Source: Buchnera aphidicola (Periphyllus acericola)
Lineage (GTDB): Bacteria; Pseudomonadota; Gammaproteobacteria; Enterobacterales; Enterobacteriaceae
Assembly: GCF_964019855.1 (NCBI RefSeq)
Contig: NZ_OZ026466.1
Location: 372,001-436,000, forward strand
Direction of reading: 5' to 3'
DNA: 64,000 bases
The number at the start of each line of letters is the position of its first letter. Position 1 is the stretch's first letter. The notes beneath the pieces are model-generated. The model was not told the DNA's origin and ran no database searches. It worked only from the letters and a program-made list of their open reading frames with translations. The position numbers were made by a program, and so were the translations under genes. Shown one piece after another: positions 1,027 to 58,040 of this stretch.

Positions 1027-4000
1027 TTAATTCTTTACAATTTTATGAAATTTTTGTAAACAAATAATATTTTTAAATGGATTATATTTTAATGTTTTAA
1101 TTGATTCTATTGCTCCATTTATTGTAGTATTATAATATATTTGATATTGAATAGCTTTTTTTCTAATAAATTTAGTTTTTTTAATTTCTTTTTTTGAATA
1201 TGCTGTGCTTATTATATAAGAATATTTTTTTTTTATACGTTTTGACATTTTTTCTTTTATAAAATATGTTTTCTGGATATTTTTAGATTTAATTCCATAT
1301 TTTTTTAAAAGTAAATAATTTTCTTCAATTGTATCTATTTTAAAATTAAATTTTATTAATTTTTTTGCGAGTTTTATAATATCTTTTTCATTTTCTTCTT
1401 TTAAAACTAATAATGTTCTTTTTTTATTACTAATAATATTTTTAGTTCCATACATTGCTTTTCCAAAAGCTTCAGAAAAATTTTTTCCTATTCCCATAAC
1501 TTCTCCAGTAGATTTCATTTCTGGACCAAGTATTGGATCTGAATTAGAAAATTTATTAAATGGAAAAACAGCTTCTTTAACAGAAAAATATTTTAAATTA
1601 ATTTCTTCTTTAAAAAAATTTTGTTTTTTTAAATTAATACCAATCATTACTTTAGTTGCTATTTTTGCTAGAGGAATTCCTGTTGCTTTAGAAATAAAAG
1701 GAATTGTTCTTGATGCTCTTGGATTTACTTCTATGATATATATTTTTTTATTTTTAATTGCAAATTGTATATTTATTAATCCTTTTATTTTTAATTCAAA
1801 AGAGATTTTTTTTACTTGTTTTTTAATTTTTTTTAATATTTTTTTGTTTAATGTATATGATGGGAGTGAACAAGCTGAATCTCCTGAATGTATTCCAGCT
1901 GGTTCAATATGTTCCATAATACCTCCAATAAGTATATTTTTTCCGTCATAAATAGCATCAACATCTACTTCTATAGATTTTTCTAAATAGTGGTCTATTA
2001 AAACTGGTTGATTTTCATTATTTTTTAATCTATTTAAAAAATATTTTTTTAAATGATTAAAGTTATATATTATTTCCATAGATTTACCACCTAAAACATA
2101 TGATGGTCTAATCATAATCGGGTATTTAATATTTTTTATTTCTTTTTTTGCTTCTAATATATTTGTTACAGTAGAATTTTTTGGTTGTTTTAAATTTAAT
2201 TTATTAATTATTTTTTGAAATTTTTTTCTATTTTCAGATTTTTCAATAGATTCTGAACTTGTTCCAATAATTTTAATATTTTCTTTTGTTAAACTTTTAG
2301 CTAATTTTAATGGCGTTTGTCCTCCAAATTGAATAATTATTCCCATTGGTTTTTCAATTTTTATTATTTCTAATACATTTTCTAAAGTTATTGGTTCGAA
2401 GTATAATCTATTAGAAGTATCATAATCAGTTGATACTGTTTCTGGATTACAATTAATAATAATTGTTTCAAAATTATTTTCTTTTAAGGCTTGCGCAGCA
2501 TGTACACAACAATAATCAAATTCTATACCTTGTCCTATTCTATTTGGTCCACTTCCTAAAATTATAATTTTATTCTTATTTTTTGTTGGTTTAGCTTCAC
2601 ATTCTTCTTCCCATGTAGAATACATATATGAAATAGATGTTTTAAATTCTGCAGCACAGGAATCTACTCTTTTGTAAACTGGATGAATGTTTTTTGTATT
2701 TCTTATTTTTCTAACATATTTTTCTGTTTTTTGAATTAAATATCCTATTCTTTTATCTGAAAATCCTTTTTGTTTTATTTTTTTTAAAAATTTTTTATTA
2801 TTTATTTTATCTGGATTTTTTTTTATAATTTTTTCTATTTTTATTATTTTTTCAATTTGAGCAAGAAACCATAAATCAATATTTGTTAATTTATTTATTT
2901 TATTTATCGAAATTTTGTTTCTAAAAGCATCTCCTATATACCATAATCTATCTGGTCCTGGATATTTTAATTCTTTTTTTATTTTTTTTTTAGTATTTTT
3001 TATATTATTTTTTTTTTTAAAATTAATAATTTTTGAATTAAATCCATCAGAATCTATTTCTAAGCTAATCATAGCTTTTTGAAGTGATTCTTGAAATGTT
3101 CGTCCAATTGCCATTACTTCTCCAACAGATTTCATTTGTGTGGTTAATCTGTTGTTGCTAGAAGGAAATTTATCAAAATTAAATCTAGGTATTTTAATTA
3201 CTACATAATCTATTGATGGTTCAAAAGAAGCTGGTATATTTACTCCAGATACTGTGTTGTTTAATTCATCTAAAGTATATCCAATTGCAAGTTTTGCAGC
3301 AATTTTTGCAATAGGAAATCCTGTAGCTTTTGAAGCTAATGCAGATGATCTAGAGACTCTAGGATTCATTTCAATAACAACTATTTTACCGTTTTTAGGA
3401 TTTATTGCAAATTGTACGTTTGAACCTCCTGTTTCAATTCCTATTTCTTTAAGAATTTTTATAGAATAATTTCTCATAATTTGATATTCTTTATCACTTA
3501 AAGTTTGAGCTGGTGAAACTGTTATTGAATCTCCTGTATGAATTCCCATCGGATCTATATTTTCTATTGAACAAACTATAATACAGTTATCATTTTTATC
3601 TCTTACAACTTCCATTTCATACTCTTTCCAACCAATCATTGATTCATCAATTAATAATTCTTTTGTTGGTGATAAATTTAATCCTTTTTCACAAATTTTT
3701 TTAAATTCTTGAATATTATAAGCTATACCTCCTCCTGTTCCTCCCATAGTAAAAGATGGTCTAATAATACAAGGAAAACCTATTTTTTTAGAAATTTTTA
3801 TTGCTTCTTTTAAAGAGTGAGCAATACCTGATTTAGGCATTTCAATTTTTAACTTTTTCATAGATTTTCTAAAAAGATTTCTGTCTTCTGCTTTTTTTAT
3901 TGATTTTACTGTTGCTCCAATCATTTTTACTTTAAATTTTGATAAAATATTTTTATTATGTAATTTTAATGCACAATTTAAAGCTGTTTGTCCTCCCATT

Positions 4001-4266
4001 GTTGGTAATAAAGCGTCTGGTTTTTCTTTTTTTATAATTTTTTTAACTATTTTCCAATGAATAGGTTCAATATAAGTTTTATCGGATATTTCTGGATCTG
4101 TCATTATAGTTGCTGGATTTGAATTAATTAAAATTATTTTATAACCTTCTTCTTTTAATGCTTTACAAGCTTGAGCTCCTGAATAATCAAATTCGCAAGC
4201 TTGTCCAATAATTATTGGACCTGCTCCTAATATTAATATCGATTTTATTTTTTTAGTTTTTGGCAT
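1027..4266 (-). CDS. carB: CarB, carbamoyl-phosphate synthase large subunit
   Basis: Makes carbamoyl phosphate from ammonia (channelled from CarA), bicarbonate and two ATP, feeding arginine and pyrimidine synthesis. At 1079 residues it matches the E. coli length (1073). Both ATP-grasp halves are intact: the first opens with the [17 protein letters not shown] nucleotide loop, and the second repeats it near residue 570 ([15 protein letters not shown]). The C-terminal MGS-like allosteric domain (about residues 935-1079) is present but Lys-rich and more diverged. The ATG at 4266 follows the carA stop by 12 bases, so the two are one operon. Identification is secure. Confidence 0.98.
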
Positions 4267-4278
4267 ATTATTCTCGTT

Positions 4279-5430
4279 TTAAATTTTTATTTTTTTTTTA
4301 TTTATTAGTTTTATAAAATATTTAAATAAAAATGATGCATCGTTTGGTCCTGGATTAGATTCAGGATGTCCTTGAAAACTAAAAATAGGTTTGTTTTTGA
4401 TAGATATTCCTTGAATTGTATAATCAAAAAGAGAGATATAAGTAATTTTAATATTTTTAGGTAAGGTATTTTTTTCTATTACATAATTATGATTTTGAGA
4501 AGTAATAATAATTTTTTTTGTTTTAACATTTTGTACAGGATGATTTCCTCCATGATGCCCAAATTTCATTTTAATAATTTTAGCTTTATTAGCTAAACCA
4601 AGTATTTGATGACCTAAACAAATTCCAAACATTGGAAAATTATAATGCATTAATTTTTTTATAGATTTTATTGATTTTTTTAATTTTCTTGGATCTCCAG
4701 GACCATTAGAAAGAAATATTCCATCAGGTGATAATTGTAATATTTCATTATATTTTGTATTTTGTGGAACAATCGTAAGTTTGCATTTTTTTTTAAGTAG
4801 CATTTTTATAATATTATTTTTAATTCCAAAATTATAAATAACAATATGTTTTTTTTTAATTTTTAAAAATTTTTCATATGTTAAACTTATAAAATTTTTA
4901 TAAAGATATTTTTTTTTATTATTAATGTTATTTATTTTTATTTTTTTACAATCATTTTTTTTTGAAAATTTTAATTTTTTATATTTTAAAATTTCTTTAT
5001 AATTTTTAAAATTTGGAATTTTTTTTAAACATACAATACAACCTTTTTGAGAACCTGTTTTTCTTATTTTTTTTGTTAATTTTCTTGTATCAATATTTGT
5101 AATAGTTAATATATTTTTTTTTTTTAAATATTCTTGTAATGTTTCTTCACTTCTATAATTACTTGCAATTGGTGATATATTTTTTATAATTACTCCTTTT
5201 GCATGTATAAATTTAGATTCTTCATCATTTTTGTTTACTCCTACATTTCCTATATGAGGATAAGTAAAAGTAATAATTTGATTTTCATAAGACGGATCAG
5301 TTAAAATTTCTTGATATCCAGTCATAGATGTGTTAAAAACAATTTCTCCGTTATTTATTCCATATACTCCAATAGATTTTCCATAAAATTTACTTCCATC
5401 TTCAAGAATTAAAACGGCTGTGTTTTTCAA
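4279..5430 (-). CDS. carA: CarA, carbamoyl-phosphate synthase small (glutaminase) subunit
   Basis: Hydrolyses glutamine and passes ammonia to CarB. At 383 residues it is full length. The class I amidotransferase triad is visible: nucleophile Cys271 in FGICLGHQ, and the His-Glu pair in FQGHPES near residue 355. The middle (about residues 140-190) is Lys/Asn-rich and poorly conserved. The start is TTG at 5430, chosen because E. coli CarA aligns from there (MKNTAVLILEDG) and a GGAG ribosome-binding site lies 8 bases upstream. It is the first gene of carAB. The 164-base gap from dapB leaves room for a promoter, but I see no clear operator. Confidence 0.97.
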   Translation of the reverse strand: MKNTAVLILEDGSKFYGKSIGVYGINNGEIVFNTSMTGYQEILTDPSYENQIITFTYPHIGNVGVNKNDEESKFIHAKGVIIKNISPIASNYRSEETLQEYLKKKNILTITNIDTRKLTKKIRKTGSQKGCIVCLKKIPNFKNYKEILKYKKLKFSKKNDCKKIKINNINNKKKYLYKNFISLTYEKFLKIKKKHIVIYNFGIKNNIIKMLLKKKCKLTIVPQNTKYNEILQLSPDGIFLSNGPGDPRKLKKSIKSIKKLMHYNFPMFGICLGHQILGLANKAKIIKMKFGHHGGNHPVQNVKTKKIIITSQNHNYVIEKNTLPKNIKITYISLFDYTIQGISIKNKPIFSFQGHPESNPGPNDASFLFKYFIKLINKKKIKI

Positions 5431-36094: not shown

Positions 36095-38218
36095 ATGACT
36101 CGAAAAATAATTTTAATTCCAATAGGGAAAAACAAAAATTTAACATCTGTTGTATTAAGTTTATCTAATCTATTTAAAAAAAAAAATAAAGAATTTAGTT
36201 TTTGGAGTCCTTTTATAGATAAATCTCACATTAATAGTTTTAAAAAAAATTCTATTTTTTATCTTAAAAAAAGTAATAAATCTATAAATTTTATTAAATC
36301 AGTTTTTTTAAAAGATTTTTCTATTTTATTTAAAAAAAAAAATTATTCTATATATTTAGAAAAATTACTTGATATATATTATAATTGTAATAATAAAAAA
36401 ACTATTTTAATAGAAGGTATTCAAAGTTTTAATTATGATTCAAAATTTTTTTTTAATCAGTTAAATTTAGATATAGCAAGAATTTTAAATGCAGAAATAA
36501 TTTTTGTTATAACTTCAAAAAACAATTTTTTTAAAGATTTAAATTATAAATTTTATATAATAAAAAATTTTTTTATAAAAAACAATTTTTTAAAAATTTT
36601 AGGAGTGATTTTTAATTCAGATGATAATAAATTTTTAAATAATATAAATAATGTTAAAGAATTAAATTTTAATAATGTAAATAAAATAAATAATTTTTTT
36701 AAAAAAAATATTTTTTCTTATAAAAAAATTCCAATTTTAGGAGTCGTTCCTTCTTTTAAAATTAATTTTTCTATTGATAGAAAAATTTTTATGGATTTTT
36801 TATGTGCTAAGAGTTTATTTGAATCAAATTTAAATTTAATAAATATAAATTTAATAATTTTATTTTCTAAAAATTTTACTAAAATTTCAGATTTTTTGAA
36901 TAAAAATGTTTTATTAATTGTTAGTTTAAAAGATTTATCTTATCTAAAGAAAATTTTTTTAATGAAAAAAAAATATGAATTTTCTTTATTATTTGTAGGA
37001 AAAAATAAATCTTGTTTTTTAAAACATAAAATTTATAAAAAAATAAAGAAAATTGGTCTATCAACATTTTTTACAAGTATTAATTTATCTTTATTAATAT
37101 ATTCTTTAAATATTATTCATAATTTAAACAAAAAAATATGTTTAAATAAAAATTTAGTTAAAAAATTTTGTTTTTCTGTTTATTCAACACAAATTAATTC
37201 ACTTTTTTCAAAAAAATCAAATAGAAATAAAATTTTTTCTTCATATAATTTTTTATATAAACTAAAAAAAATAGCAAAAAGTTTTACTAAAACAATTATA
37301 TTTCCGGAAGGAGAAAATAAAAAAATTATTAAAGCAGTAGATTTATGTTATAAATTTAATATTTGTAAATGTATTCTTGTAGGAAATCCTAATAAGATTT
37401 ATGAAAATTTTTTATCTTTAGGATTATCTTTTCCAAAAAAAATTAAAATTTATGATCCAAAAAAAATTAGTAAAGAATACATCACAATTTTAAAAGACAT
37501 TTATAGTACTTTAACTATACATGAATGTAAAAAAATTCTTAAAAAAAATACTATTGTTTTATCAATGTTAATTTTAATAACTAATAAAAAATGTCATGGA
37601 TTAGTTGCAGGAATTGTTAATACTACAGCAAATGTTATACGTCCTGCATTAAAAATAGTTAAAATGAATAGTAATGTACGTTTAATTTCTTCAATATTTT
37701 TTATGTTATTTCCAGAAAAAGTTTTAATATATGGAGATTGTGCAATTAATCCTAATCCTAGTGCGTTAGATTTAGCTGAAATTGCTATACAATCTTCTGA
37801 ATCTGCAAAAATTTTTGGAATATTACCTAAGATAGCAATGCTTTCATATTCTACAAATGATTCTGGATCTGGACCAATGGTTGATAAAGTAAAAATTGCA
37901 ACTGAACTAGTTCGTAAAAAAAGACCAGATCTAATAATAGAAGGACCTATACAATATGATGCAGCAACAGATAAAAATATATCTAAAATAAAATTTTTAA
38001 AATCTAAAATATTAGGAGATGCTAATATATTTATTTTTCCAGATTTAAATAGTGGAAATATTTCTTATAAAGCAGTTCAAAGAAATTGTTCGATATTTTC
38101 TATAGGTCCTATGATACAAGGTTTAAAAAAACCTGTAAATGATCTTTCAAGAGGAGCTTCTGTAGAAGATATTTTATATACAATAGCTTTAACAGTACTT
38201 CAGTCTTCTAATAAATAA
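36095..38218 (+). CDS. pta: Pta, phosphate acetyltransferase
   Basis: Converts acetyl-CoA and phosphate to acetyl phosphate. 707 residues (E. coli 714). The C-terminal catalytic domain (about 385-707) is highly conserved: FPEGENKKI, GDCAINPNPSA, PDLNSGN and VNDLSRGA. In contrast the N-terminal P-loop-like and DRTGG domains (1-370) are eroded: the E. coli loop GTSVGLTS reads GKNKNLTS, and much of the rest is Lys/Asn/Phe-rich. AAGGA precedes the ATG. The enzyme is probably active; its allosteric control is doubtful. Confidence 0.96.
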   Translation: MTRKIILIPIGKNKNLTSVVLSLSNLFKKKNKEFSFWSPFIDKSHINSFKKNSIFYLKKSNKSINFIKSVFLKDFSILFKKKNYSIYLEKLLDIYYNCNNKKTILIEGIQSFNYDSKFFFNQLNLDIARILNAEIIFVITSKNNFFKDLNYKFYIIKNFFIKNNFLKILGVIFNSDDNKFLNNINNVKELNFNNVNKINNFFKKNIFSYKKIPILGVVPSFKINFSIDRKIFMDFLCAKSLFESNLNLININLIILFSKNFTKISDFLNKNVLLIVSLKDLSYLKKIFLMKKKYEFSLLFVGKNKSCFLKHKIYKKIKKIGLSTFFTSINLSLLIYSLNIIHNLNKKICLNKNLVKKFCFSVYSTQINSLFSKKSNRNKIFSSYNFLYKLKKIAKSFTKTIIFPEGENKKIIKAVDLCYKFNICKCILVGNPNKIYENFLSLGLSFPKKIKIYDPKKISKEYITILKDIYSTLTIHECKKILKKNTIVLSMLILITNKKCHGLVAGIVNTTANVIRPALKIVKMNSNVRLISSIFFMLFPEKVLIYGDCAINPNPSALDLAEIAIQSSESAKIFGILPKIAMLSYSTNDSGSGPMVDKVKIATELVRKKRPDLIIEGPIQYDAATDKNISKIKFLKSKILGDANIFIFPDLNSGNISYKAVQRNCSIFSIGPMIQGLKKPVNDLSRGASVEDILYTIALTVLQSSNK

Positions 38219-38281
38219 TAAATTTTTAAAATATTTATAGTCCTATATTTGATTTCTTGATTATTATAGAAAATACTTTCA

Positions 38282-38375
38282 TTCTTTTGCAAAGAAGCTA
38301 AAATATATTTTTTAAAATATAATTTTTTTCTTTTAAAATATTAATTCAGTGTATTTCATAATAGACTTCTTTGCA
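38282..38375. repeat. Inverted repeat just downstream of pta
   Basis: TGCAAAGAAG at 38288-38297 is the reverse complement of CTTCTTTGCA at 38366-38375. The left arm can also fold on itself (TTCTTT 38282-38287 with AAAGAA 38291-38296, loop TGC). It starts 64 bases after the pta stop and may be its transcript end, or a relic within the decayed region. Confidence 0.4.
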
Positions 38376-39870
38376 TTGGTATTCTATTTTAAAATTTTTT
38401 TATAATATTAGTAGTAATTAGTATTTTTCATTTGTATATATTTTTTTATAATTTTTTTTATTAAAATAATATATTTTTTTCTTTTTTTTTAAAATTTATT
38501 AAATTTTATTTTTTATATATTTAACAGAAATATTTAAAGAAAATATTTTTTATTGTTATAATTAAAATTATTTTTTTTGATAAACGTTTATATATTTAAA
38601 TATTTTTAAATTATTTTTAGTATTTTGATAATATAAATTTTTTATACTGTATTTATATGCTATTAATAAATTTTTTACTTTATACTTTTATAAGTATTTT
38701 TTTGTTCTAAAATTTTTTAGAATTAGAATTTTTATTTGTTGAAATTTATTAATTAAAAATTTTTTTAATAATTTTTATTAAATTTAAATATTTTGTACTT
38801 TTTAAATTTTCCATAATGTTTAATAATATAATTTAAGGTTTTTTATTCTAGAATAATTTGTTAAAAGATACTATTTTAAATTTTTAATACTTATAAAACT
38901 TCTTAATGAACTTAACTTCATTAGTAGAATAAAAGATTTTAGAAGATATTTCAGAAGAAATTTTTATAAATAAGTTTAATTTTTTAATATATATTTAATA
39001 ATTTTTTTAGTTTTTTCTAATTAAAATTTTAAGGTTTTGAATAAATTTAATTAATATATTTTTTATATGTATTAATTTATAAAATTTCTTTTTAATATTT
39101 TTTATTCAAGATTTTAAATTTTCATTTTTTTATAAATTTATAAGATAATTTTATATATTTCTTTAAATGTTCTATATGTTAGAATATTTTTTTATTATTA
39201 TAATATTTACTTTATTTTTTTTAAGTAATAAGAAAAATTATTACTTTAATTTTAAATAATTTTTTATTTATAGTACTTTTATGTAAAATCATTGGATATT
39301 TTTAATAATCTAATATTTTATCAGGTGTTTTTACAATAAAATTAGATAATTTATGAATATTATTAAATTATTTTATTTTCTTAATTTTATTTTAAATAAT
39401 ATATAAAGCGAAATTTCTATATTTTTATTATTTATATTGTTAATTGTTTTAGTAGTCATTTATATCTATATATAAATTTGATTGTTTAATTGGAGATACT
39501 TTATATTAAAAAAATTTTTATTATTAATAATAATTAACCTTTTTAATATAAATTCTTTTTATAGAAGTTTATTTATAAAAGTAATTATAATAAATTAATT
39601 ATTTTTATTTTTTTTAAGTTTATATTTAAAAAATTATTTATTAAATTTTTTTTTTATTTAAAAAAAATTATATAGATTTTAAATATTAAACGAATTAAAT
39701 AAAGTAATTTTTTTTGATCTCAATTCTTGTTTTTATATTAATGTATTTATTTGTACAGAATAATTTATATTTTAAATTTTATTTTTTTGAATTTTTTTAT
39801 TATTTTTTAGTATCAGTATATTTTAAATTTTTAAATAAAAAATTGGATAAAATAATTTTTCAGATTCTCT

Positions 39871-39933
39871 TATACCCTTTCCTTAACAATATGATTTTAT
39901 AGAAGTGTTTAAATATTTTTAGAAAAGGGTATA
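39871..39933. repeat. 10-bp inverted repeat in the pta-gyrA gap
   Basis: TATACCCTTT at 39871-39880 pairs perfectly with AAAGGGTATA at 39924-39933, across 43 bases. The CCC/GGG cores are unusual in this A/T background. Its role is unknown. Confidence 0.35.
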
Positions 39934-40674
39934 TATCGTTTTATTAATTTTTTCTCTAATTCTAATAGAACTTTTCTTATTATTCTTATTTTTCTAGTAT
40001 TTTTATAATTTCTAAGTATTTATATATATATTATTTTTATATTTTAAATAGTATTTTTAGAATTTTAATTTTTATAATATTTAATTAATAATATATGAAT
40101 TAAATTTTTTATTAAGAATTTTATTTTAGTTATTATTTATTGTTAATAAAATTTTAAATATAGATATTTCGTTACAAAATTTTTTATATTTTTTAATCAA
40201 GTATTTTAGAACATTTAATAAATATATATTGATAAAAAATAATATATAAAAATTTAATTATTTTATATACTTTATAAGTAATTGTATTTTTTATTAAATA
40301 TTTTTATATTTTTTTTTTTATTTTATTTTTTTTTTTTTTTATTTTATTTTTTTGAAATTAATTTTGTAGCTGATAAAATAATAGTTTGATGTATATTTAT
40401 AGTTTTCATTTTATTATAAAATTTTATTTTTTGATTTTAATTCTACTTAATAAATTTCAATATTTTTTCATTCTATTGATTTCAAAAATTTAATATTTTA
40501 TAAATTTTTTATAAATTTATTAATTATTTTTTATTTTTTTTTTATAATATATATTTTTTATATAATTTTATATATTTAAAAAATATTTTTGAATATAAAT
40601 AATTTTTTAATTTTTGTAATAAAATTTTTTAAGTTAATTTTTTATTTTTTTAAAAAAAAATTTTAAGTCATTTA

Positions 40675-43167
40675 TTATATTAATTCTTCTTGAATTTTCT
40701 GTAATCCAACAACTTTTTCTTTTTTAAACATTCTTATCAAAATAACTCCTTGCGTATTTCTTTTTAAAATATTAATTTCTGATACTCTAGTTCGTACTAA
40801 TTTTCCAGAATTTGTAATGATAATTATTTGATTTTTTTCATTTACTTGAATAGCTTTTACTACAGATTTATTTTTTTTAGTAATTTTTATTGAGATTACT
40901 CCTTTTGTAGCTCTGGATTTTATAGGAAATTCTTTAATATTTGTTCTTTTTCCGTATCCTTTTTTTGTAATAACTAGTATTTCTCCATTTTTTTTTGGAA
41001 TAATTAAAGAAACAACTTTATCATTTTTTTCTATTTTTATTCCTTTTACACCAGTTGCTGTTCTTCCCATTGATCTAACATAATTTTCTGAAAATTGCAC
41101 TACTTTTCCTTTTGATGTAAATAACATTATATTATTTTTTCCATTTGTTAATGATACACCTATTAATTCATCATTTTTTTTTAAATTTAAAGCTATAATT
41201 CCTTTATTTCTTGGATTTTGAAATTTTTTTAAAGATGTTTTTTTAACTATACCTAAAGCTGTAGCCATAAATATATTTTTTTTTTCTAAATATTTACTTA
41301 ATGGTAAAATTGCAGTAATTCTTTCTTTGTTATTTAATGGTAATAAATTTATTATTGGTTTTCCTCTTGAATGACGACTTGCTTCTGGTAGTTGATATAC
41401 TTTCATCCAATATATTATTCCTTTACTGGAAAAACATAATATAGTATCATGAGTATTAGCTATTAATAAGTTTTCTATATAATCTTCTGATTTAACTTTA
41501 GCTGCATATTTTCCCTTTCCTCCTCTTTTTTGTGCTTTATATTCTGTTATTGGTTGATATTTTACATATCCAGAATGAGATAAAGTTACAACAACATCTT
41601 CTGATGTAATCATATCTTTAATAGCAATATTTGATTTTTTATCTGTAATTTCTGTTTTTCTTAAATCTCCAAATTTTTTTTTTATTAATTTTAATTCTTT
41701 TTCTATGACTTTAATCATTTTTTTTTCATTATTTAAAATTTCTTTTAAATAAAACATTTCTTTTTTAAATTTTTGATATTGATAAATAATTTTTTCATAT
41801 TCTAAATTTGTTAATTTACTTAATTTTGTATTGAGTATTTTTTCTACTTGTTTATCAGAAAAAGTATATTTTTTATTTAATTTTTTTTTATTAATTATTT
41901 TTTTTATGGAACTATTTATTTTCCATTTTTTAGATAATAAAATTTTTTTTGCTTCTTTTGTTTTATTAGAAGATTTTATACATGATATTATTTGATCAAT
42001 ATTTTCTAATGCTACTGTTAATCCTTCTAATAAAATCATTTTTTTTTTATATTTTTTATAATTAAAAAAACATCTTTTAGTTACAATTTCTTTTCTATGA
42101 ATAATAAAAGATTGTATGATATCTTTAAGATTCATTAATTTTGGTTGACCTTGATACAAGGCTACCATATTTATTCCGAAAGAAATTTGTAATGATGTTA
42201 ATAAATATAATTTGTTAAGTATAATTTCAGATAGAAATTCTTTTTTTATTTCAATTACAATTCTCATTCCATCTTTATCACTTTCGTCTCTAAGCGCTGA
42301 AATTCCTTCTATTTTTTTTTCTTTTACTAAATTTGCAATTTTTTTTATTAATTTGGATTTGTTTGTTTGATAAGGTAATTGATATATAATAATAGATTTT
42401 TTTTTTGTTTTTATATTATTTTCAATTTTTATTCTAGCTCTAATATAAATTTTTCCTTTTCCAGTTTTATATGCTGTTTTTATACCTGATTTACCATTTA
42501 TTATTCCATATGTTGGAAAATCTGGTCCTGGAATATATTTCATTAAATTATTTAAACTAATTTTTGGATTGTTTAAATATTTTAAACATGCATTAATTGT
42601 TTCGTTTAAATTGTGAGGTGGAATATTTGTTGCCATTCCTACAGCAATTCCAGATGATCCATTTATTAAAAGATTTGGTATTTCTGCAGGTAGAATTTCT
42701 GGTATTTTTTCAGATCCATCATAATTTTTTATAAATTTAACTGTTTTTTTATCTAAATCATTTAAAAATGTATGGGCTATTTTTGACATTCTTATTTCAG
42801 TATATCTCATAGCTGCTGGAGAATCTCCATCTATTGATCCAAAATTTCCTTGTCCATCAATTAACATATATCTTAATGAGAAAAATTGAGCCATTCTTAC
42901 AATAGAATCATATACAGCTGTATCTCCATGTGGGTGATATTTTCCTATTACGTCTCCTACAATTCTAGCAGATTTTTTATATGGTTTGTTCCATTTATTA
43001 TTAAGAATATACATTGCAAAGAGTATTCTTCTATGAACAGGTTTTAATCCATCTCTCACATCTGGAAGTGCTCTTCCAATAATTACTGACATAGCATAGT
43101 CTAAATAAGAATTTTTTAATTCTTTTTCAATTTTTACTTTTATTATTTTTTTTGCAAATTTGTTCAT
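40675..43167 (-). CDS. gyrA: GyrA, DNA gyrase subunit A
   Basis: Breakage-reunion subunit of DNA gyrase, introducing negative supercoils with GyrB. 830 residues; E. coli has 875, and the acidic C-terminal tail is what is missing. The active-site tyrosine is in [14 protein letters not shown] (about residue 122), and the GyrA box reads QKRGGKG near 560, followed by the beta-pinwheel blades. The ATG follows an AAGAGAAG site. It converges on pta across the long empty region. DnaA or FIS sites are not evident upstream. Confidence 0.98.
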
Positions 43168-46489: not shown

Positions 46490-46786
46490 AAATTTCACCG
46501 TATTATTTTGATTAGTTTTTATTAAAATTAATATTTATTTATAAATTTATTATATTTTAAATTTTGTATAATTTTAAATTAAAATATTTAATTAAATTTA
46601 ATTTATTTAAAATTTTTTTATTTTATATATTTTATTTAAATTATATAATAATTTATTTTAATTACATAATATATAAAATATTTTTTAAAAATTTTATTGT
46701 TTATATAAAAAAATATTTTTTTTATTTTTTTAAATATATTATAGAAATATTTATATTTTTTAAAAAAATTTTTTATATTTTAAATT

Positions 46787-47176
46787 TGGAGCTGGCGGGA
46801 TTCGAACCCGCGTCCAAATATTTTTTTGTACTAATGCACTACATGATTAGTCTTCTATGATTCTCTTTTTCTTTTTTATTAAAGACAATTTAAAGAAACG
46901 TAGTTTTTTTTTAAAATAAATTGAAATATAAAAACAATATTTTAATTTTGTTTCTTATTTTTTTTAAACCATTTATGTATTTTGAAATAATCTAATTTTG
47001 AAAGAAACAAATCAAATAGATTTATAAATGGGCTTTAAAACAGTTTTTTAAGCTGCTAAAGCGTATTCCTGTTTATTTTTTGCAGATATTTTTAATTTTG
47101 GTTTTTTTACGAGGCAAACCAACCCTCGTCATGCACATCAGTATTAGAATTATTTGTCAAATCCTAAATCAGCCCC
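46787..47176 (-). ncRNA. ssrA: tmRNA (ssrA)
   Basis: Rescues stalled ribosomes by trans-translation. Read on the minus strand, it opens with GGGGCTGATT at 47176 and ends with the tRNA-like half GCGGGTTCGAATCCCGCCAGCTCCA at 46787-46812; GGGGCTG pairs with CAGCTCC as the acceptor stem. The tag frame runs from GCA at 47083 to TAA at 47048 and encodes AKNKQEYALAA (E. coli: ANDENYALAA). No CCA is encoded after the discriminator A, so the tail must be added enzymatically. The 297 bases between it and grpE are A/T spacer. Confidence 0.96.
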
Positions 47177-57158: not shown

Positions 57159-57269
57159 ATTTTTTTTAAAAAAATTTGTGTTTTTTAGAAGGAAATTTTT
57201 CAAGTTCTACTTTTTAAATATAATTTTTAGTTGCTTATATTAAAGATATATTTTTTTTTAAAAAAATTT

Positions 57270-57924
57270 TTACAAATTTATGTTTTTTTTTATAATACCT
57301 AACATATCATGCATTACTAATATTTGTCCATCTGTGTAAGGACTAGATCCAATTCCTATTACTGGTATTTTTGATTTTTTAGTAACTTTTTTTGCTAAAT
57401 TATTTGGAACACATTCTAAAAGAATCATATTTGTTCCTGATTTTTCTAAAATTAATGATTTTTAATAAATTTTTTTGAATCTATTTTTGATTTTCTTTGA
57501 ATTTTATATTCTTTTTCTTTATTTATATTTTTAGGTTTTAATCCAATATGACAATATTTTAAAATAGATTTTTTAGCTAAATGTTTTATTATTTTTTTTT
57601 CCATGATCTTCCTTCTATTTTAATCATATTTGCTCTAGATTAAATTATTGAACATGCATTTTTTAGAGTTTGTTTTTTTATTCATAAATGTCATAAATGA
57701 TAAATCTGAAATAATAAATTTGTTTTTAGATCCTTTTATACGGTTTTTGTATGATATTTTATATTTTTTTAATTTTACTTCTAAAGTAGATTTTTTTCCT
57801 TGAATAACCACTCCAAGAGAATCACCTAATAATAGAATTGGAGTTCCTGATTCTGAAAAATAATTTTGAAAAACTAAAATCATAAGCAGTAATTGTTGAA
57901 AATTTATGTTTTTTTAATTTCCAT
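57270..57924 (-). pseudogene. panB: Broken panB, ketopantoate hydroxymethyltransferase
   Basis: Fragments in several frames spell PanB in order: [66 protein letters not shown] and [12 protein letters not shown]. Frame changes fall in homopolymers: T7 at 57909-57915, A5 at 57856-57860, T7 at 57673-57679 and T5 at 57459-57463. There is also an in-frame TAA at 57640-57642 and an early stop at 57270-57272, about 50 residues before the usual end. The longest surviving open stretch is 57635-57883. Decay looks recent because the protein sequence is still readable. Confidence 0.93.
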
Positions 57925-58040
57925 TTATATATTTATATATATTAATTTTTTTTATTTTTTTTTTTTTTTTTTATTTTATTTTTTAAAATTTTTTTAATTT
58001 TATAAAAAATTTTTATATAAATTTTTTTTTATTTTGAAAA

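Follow-up and report, generated by a model that had tools for sequence, protein, structure and literature searches.

A putative fossil of the nrdA-nrdB-yfaE operon in a Buchnera lineage near that of Periphyllus aceris

What fills the stretch between pta and gyrA in this Buchnera chromosome, in which no gene can be recognised? The window, i.e. the whole analysed stretch of 64,000 nucleotides, belongs to a genome of 459,522 bp that is assembled as one contig with a completeness of 99.98%. Since pta ends at 38218 on the forward strand and gyrA ends at 40675 on the reverse strand, the interval comprises exactly positions 38219-40674 (2,456 bp), and both flanking genes are intact:

36095-38218, forward strand: pta, left flank, intact; 707-aa ORF, matching Chaitophorus Pta over residues 1-706.
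40675-43167, reverse strand: gyrA, right flank, intact; 830-aa ORF, 97% identical at the amino acid level to GyrA of the Buchnera of the aphid Periphyllus aceris.

The preliminary description, made from the letters of the sequence, had reported 2.46 kb without a recognisable gene between pta and gyrA, and had placed all other gaps of the window under about 0.9 kb. Both statements were confirmed, as the longest ORF listed inside the interval has 62 aa and the next-largest gap between ORFs of at least 100 aa measures 882 bp. This second-largest gap holds a young panB pseudogene (57168-57949, reverse strand), with a frameshift near 57465 and several stops, next to an intact panC; the Buchnera of P. 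koelreuteriae has an intact panB. A promoter scan found 41 sites against 39.3 expected from shuffles, and a search for direct and inverted repeats returned hundreds of AT-rich chance pairs. A plasmid DNA search with the interval as query gave weak AT-rich matches only.

The same interval in related genomes

The interval was compared among 11 Buchnera genomes (G000-G010, with G000 being the genome of the window), where the host names of P. lyropictus (G001), P. koelreuteriae (G006) and Sipha maydis (G003) are inferred. In seven genomes an intact nrdA-nrdB-yfaE block is located between gyrA and pta, in intervals of 3,794-3,848 bp. In the Buchnera of Chaitophorus viminalis the block consists of nrdA (760 aa), nrdB (375 aa) and yfaE (92 aa), which follow the reading direction of gyrA and face pta. 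The order yfaE-nrdB-nrdA, which the preliminary description had given for this place in Buchnera APS, is therefore correct for C. viminalis and six more relatives, and the notion that collinear relatives never had genes here does not hold. The gyrA-pta interval of the four genomes without an intact block measures 2,456 bp in the window, 876 bp in both P. aceris and P. lyropictus and 373 bp in G005. The GC content of the interval in the window is 9.5%, compared with 21-23% in the matching interval of the relatives that carry ribonucleotide reductase (RNR).

Remnants of nrdA and yfaE

A search of the interval against NrdA, NrdB and YfaE, as had been proposed, matched remnants of NrdA and YfaE, but tblastn with NrdB of the relatives gave no match in the interval. 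From gyrA toward pta, NrdA fragments are followed by YfaE fragments, in the expected order and on the expected strand, and the following features were assigned:

40563-40674, reverse strand: former gyrA-nrdA spacer (nrdA leader), matching the 112-bp leader of P. koelreuteriae; 104 nt aligned, 76% identity.
38563-40559, reverse strand: nrdA pseudogene (class Ia RNR, large subunit); collinear fragments, residues 4-746 of 761.
38487-38562, reverse strand: former nrdB position; about 1 kb of 1,128 bp deleted, intact nrdB here in seven relatives.
38244-38486, reverse strand: yfaE pseudogene (2Fe-2S ferredoxin maintaining class Ia RNR), from tblastn and alignment with the intact yfaE of relatives.

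With P. koelreuteriae NrdA as the tblastn query, residues 4-73 were found at 40559-40347, 148-186 at 40321-40205, 281-475 at 39924-39364, 407-609 at 39568-38987 and 604-742 at 39008-38595, with many stops and at 36-51% identity. These and the other identity percentages are approximate because AT-rich sequence inflates them in the aligner, so that the argument rests on how the alignments score against shuffles and on the order in which the fragments follow each other. YfaE residues 2-60 were found at 38486-38310 (52%, three stops) and residues 55-71 at 38328-38278 (76%), while residues 10-83 of Chaitophorus YfaE match 38483-38244. When the whole interval was aligned with four intact blocks, scores of 3,066-3,815 were obtained, compared with means of 1,545-1,725 (sd 39-63) for dinucleotide shuffles, which corresponds to a z of about 28-55; the reverse complement and the reversal of the interval score far lower against the intact blocks. 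In the global alignment about 2,004 of the 2,286 nt of nrdA align, but only 121 of the 1,128 nt of nrdB. The nrdA remnant carries 47 in-phase stops in 639 codons, as well as 38 indels whose length is not a multiple of three. Across the three codon positions, identity in the remnant is flat (0.706/0.752/0.724, as opposed to 0.929/0.967/0.765 between the nrdA genes of two intact relatives), indicating that codon constraint is gone.

Thus, the interval shares position, order and strand with the intact operons of the C. viminalis, P. koelreuteriae and Sipha maydis strains and is homologous to them from end to end, but differs in that no frame survives and that nrdB has lost about 1 kb. The dead gene block suggested in the preliminary description fits the position, the end-to-end alignment and the lesions, with nrdA and yfaE as remnants and nrdB mostly gone. 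Judged from sequence comparison, the interval would almost certainly be a decaying nrdA-nrdB-yfaE operon in a Buchnera lineage near that of P. aceris. For the 876-bp interval of P. aceris, the best fit is a single deletion of about 1.57 kb, corresponding to 38460-40033 of the window; here the window copy was used as a bridge, as the short remnant of P. aceris gave no information when aligned directly to intact blocks. The Buchnera of P. aceris has thus lost this block too and, on the best fit, has deleted more of it. In such a course of events the genes, once RNR was lost, would have drifted to 9.5% GC, and their removal by deletion would be under way.

Alternative explanations

Two inverted repeats had been pointed out at 38288/38366 and 39871/39924, and both exist, with 9-nt perfect cores:

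38288-38375, no strand: inverted repeat 1; two fossil yfaE codon stretches, QCKEG and ASLQK.
39871-39933, no strand: inverted repeat 2; former NrdA codons 275-303 (HTGCIPFYKHFQTAVKSCSQGGVRGGSAT).

They could mark a non-coding spacer under selection, in which a structured small RNA or a terminator region was kept after the death of the genes. Indeed, both repeats exceed dinucleotide shuffles, P. aceris has repeat 1 in unchanged form, and the 241 bp on the pta side are somewhat better kept between the window and P. aceris (82% identity) than the gyrA side (75%). However, the arms of repeat 1, GCAAAGAAG and CTTCTTTGC, which are also found in P. aceris, are already present as codons in the intact yfaE of two relatives, P. 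koelreuteriae and G007. Repeat 2 lies in a conserved NrdA stretch ending SCSQGGVRGGSAT, reaches full complementarity only in the window copy when aligned to seven intact nrdA genes, and on the best one-deletion fit is apparently deleted in P. aceris. Since the arms fall within what were once codons of yfaE and nrdA, shuffling the decayed sequence gives an inappropriate null, and a structured RNA is not needed as an explanation of either helix. Rfam and tRNA scans gave no match in 38219-40674, with only the tmRNA (46786-47176) found across the window, and a terminator scan returned no terminator-like site. Moreover, the identity between the intervals of the window and P. aceris (0.75-0.82) is below that at fourfold sites of gyrA (0.88), i.e. 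the remnants differ by about 18-25% compared with 12%. The interval therefore diverges faster than these sites and seems to be without a sign of selection on the spacer, making a selected spacer very improbable.

In principle, an intact operon could look decayed through an artefact of assembly or sequencing, as high AT content makes sequencing error-prone. Yet, the stops and frameshifts are spread along nrdA, the GC content has fallen from 21% to 9.5%, nrdB is deleted and the same block is lost in the P. aceris assembly, so that an artefact can be regarded as extremely improbable. A further explanation accepts the decay of the operon but proposes that RNR was replaced by a copy elsewhere, on a plasmid, on an unassembled contig or of a divergent class, with dNTP synthesis still in house. 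Buchnera can carry plasmid-borne amino acid genes, and the genome that was searched consists of one chromosome contig. Against this, the assembly is nearly complete, and profile searches for the nrdA-, nrdB- and nrdD-type families, which cover RNR of classes I, II and III and in which the controls matched, found neither PF02867 (large subunit) nor PF00268 nor PF13597 on the chromosome; the proposed search of the rest of the genome for nrdAB or nrdDG thus came back empty for the chromosome. PF02867 is also absent from P. aceris, P. lyropictus and G005, and the gene for thymidylate kinase, tmk, is dead too. In a plasmid search with NrdA, Buchnera was not among the 10 organisms named out of 19 with matches. 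We consider a copy elsewhere highly unlikely, and loss of RNR together with decay of nrdA-nrdB-yfaE remains the preferred reading.

Losses of RNR and the supply of deoxynucleotides

On a tree of GyrA and Pta, P. koelreuteriae and G007, both of which keep the operon, fall into one group with the window and P. aceris (support 97/99). A forced grouping of the window, P. aceris and P. lyropictus was rejected (AU p 0.0005), and P. lyropictus retains other pieces of the operon (NrdA 194-285 and NrdB 288-374), which argues for at least two separate RNR losses among nominal Periphyllus symbionts, with G005 as a further case; with two genes and a long branch for G005, the tree serves as a guide only. 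The Buchnera of P. lyropictus falls outside the other Periphyllus symbionts on GyrA and Pta, so that the tree or the host naming is questionable.

Loss of RNR has already been published for Buchnera: it was listed in 2009 for Buchnera aphidicola of Cinara cedri, BCc (PMC2795772), and 22 of 74 Buchnera assemblies are without RNR and deoB (PMC10121223). The interval is therefore a new, well-resolved case of something known. As in BCc and these 22 assemblies, there is no ribonucleotide reduction and deoxynucleotides presumably come from outside; by contrast, the nrdA fossil of the window is nearly full length, tmk is also a pseudogene, and the loss falls within a group in which the closest relatives have retained the operon. 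The presence of RNR is not coupled to that of deoB in the 11 genomes, unlike the joint loss stressed in PMC10121223: five have RNR and no deoB, one has deoB and no RNR (G005), two have both and three neither. The puzzle of dNTP supply, raised in the preliminary description for the case that RNR is really gone, is real, since the RNR families are absent from the chromosome, but it is not unique to this strain. With the RNR genes decayed, the building blocks of DNA would now have to come from the host or a partner, and RNR may have been lost once the aphid bacteriocyte or a co-obligate symbiont could supply dNTPs or dNDPs.

The fate of tmk bears on the form in which they would arrive. Absent only from the genome of the window and P. 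aceris, tmk has a full match in the other nine of the 11 genomes, and its remnant lies outside the window:

Chromosome about 82800-83440 (positions 3801-4440 of locus L083), between fabG and holB: tmk (thymidylate kinase) pseudogene.

In-phase stops at codons 16, 41, 94 and 110 as well as a 5-nt deletion are shared by the pseudogenes of the two genomes, while tmk of P. lyropictus is intact. Thymidylate synthase (thyA) is absent in 10 of the 11 genomes, being found only in G008, and ndk is absent in all 11, so that these absences are not special to the lineage of the window; dut is present in its genome. As a separate observation, even most strains that carry RNR seem to have an incomplete dTTP synthesis of their own, because thyA occurs only in G008 and ndk in none.

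Since tmk is dead and thyA absent, dTTP or dTDP is apparently imported if no other kinase stands in, and thymidine nucleotides probably arrive in one of these forms rather than as thymidine or dTMP. Dependence on outside deoxynucleotides is common to the RNR-less parasites Borreliella burgdorferi and Ureaplasma (PMC2795772; PMC10121223), but the window strain has also lost tmk, so that uptake of nucleosides would be insufficient for dTTP unless another kinase stands in. The chances are about even that the lineage of the window and P. aceris, as its gene content suggests, lives without RNR, thymidylate synthase and thymidylate kinase by taking up, through some carrier, dTDP or dTTP that the aphid or a co-symbiont provides. 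A search for TLC nucleotide carriers was uninformative, as no control matched. A limited literature search found no report of tmk loss in Buchnera, which is weak evidence.

The loss of RNR can be placed on the tree, as the fossil has kept its match to the intact operon of the nearest relatives and shows further deletion in a close relative, and RNR appears to have been lost separately in another nominal Periphyllus symbiont. The main interest lies in nrdAB and tmk being both dead in one lineage. The death of tmk would narrow the required import to dTDP or dTTP, so that the question of import becomes testable; if the proposed uptake is true, the symbiosis would have an import route for phosphorylated deoxynucleotides.
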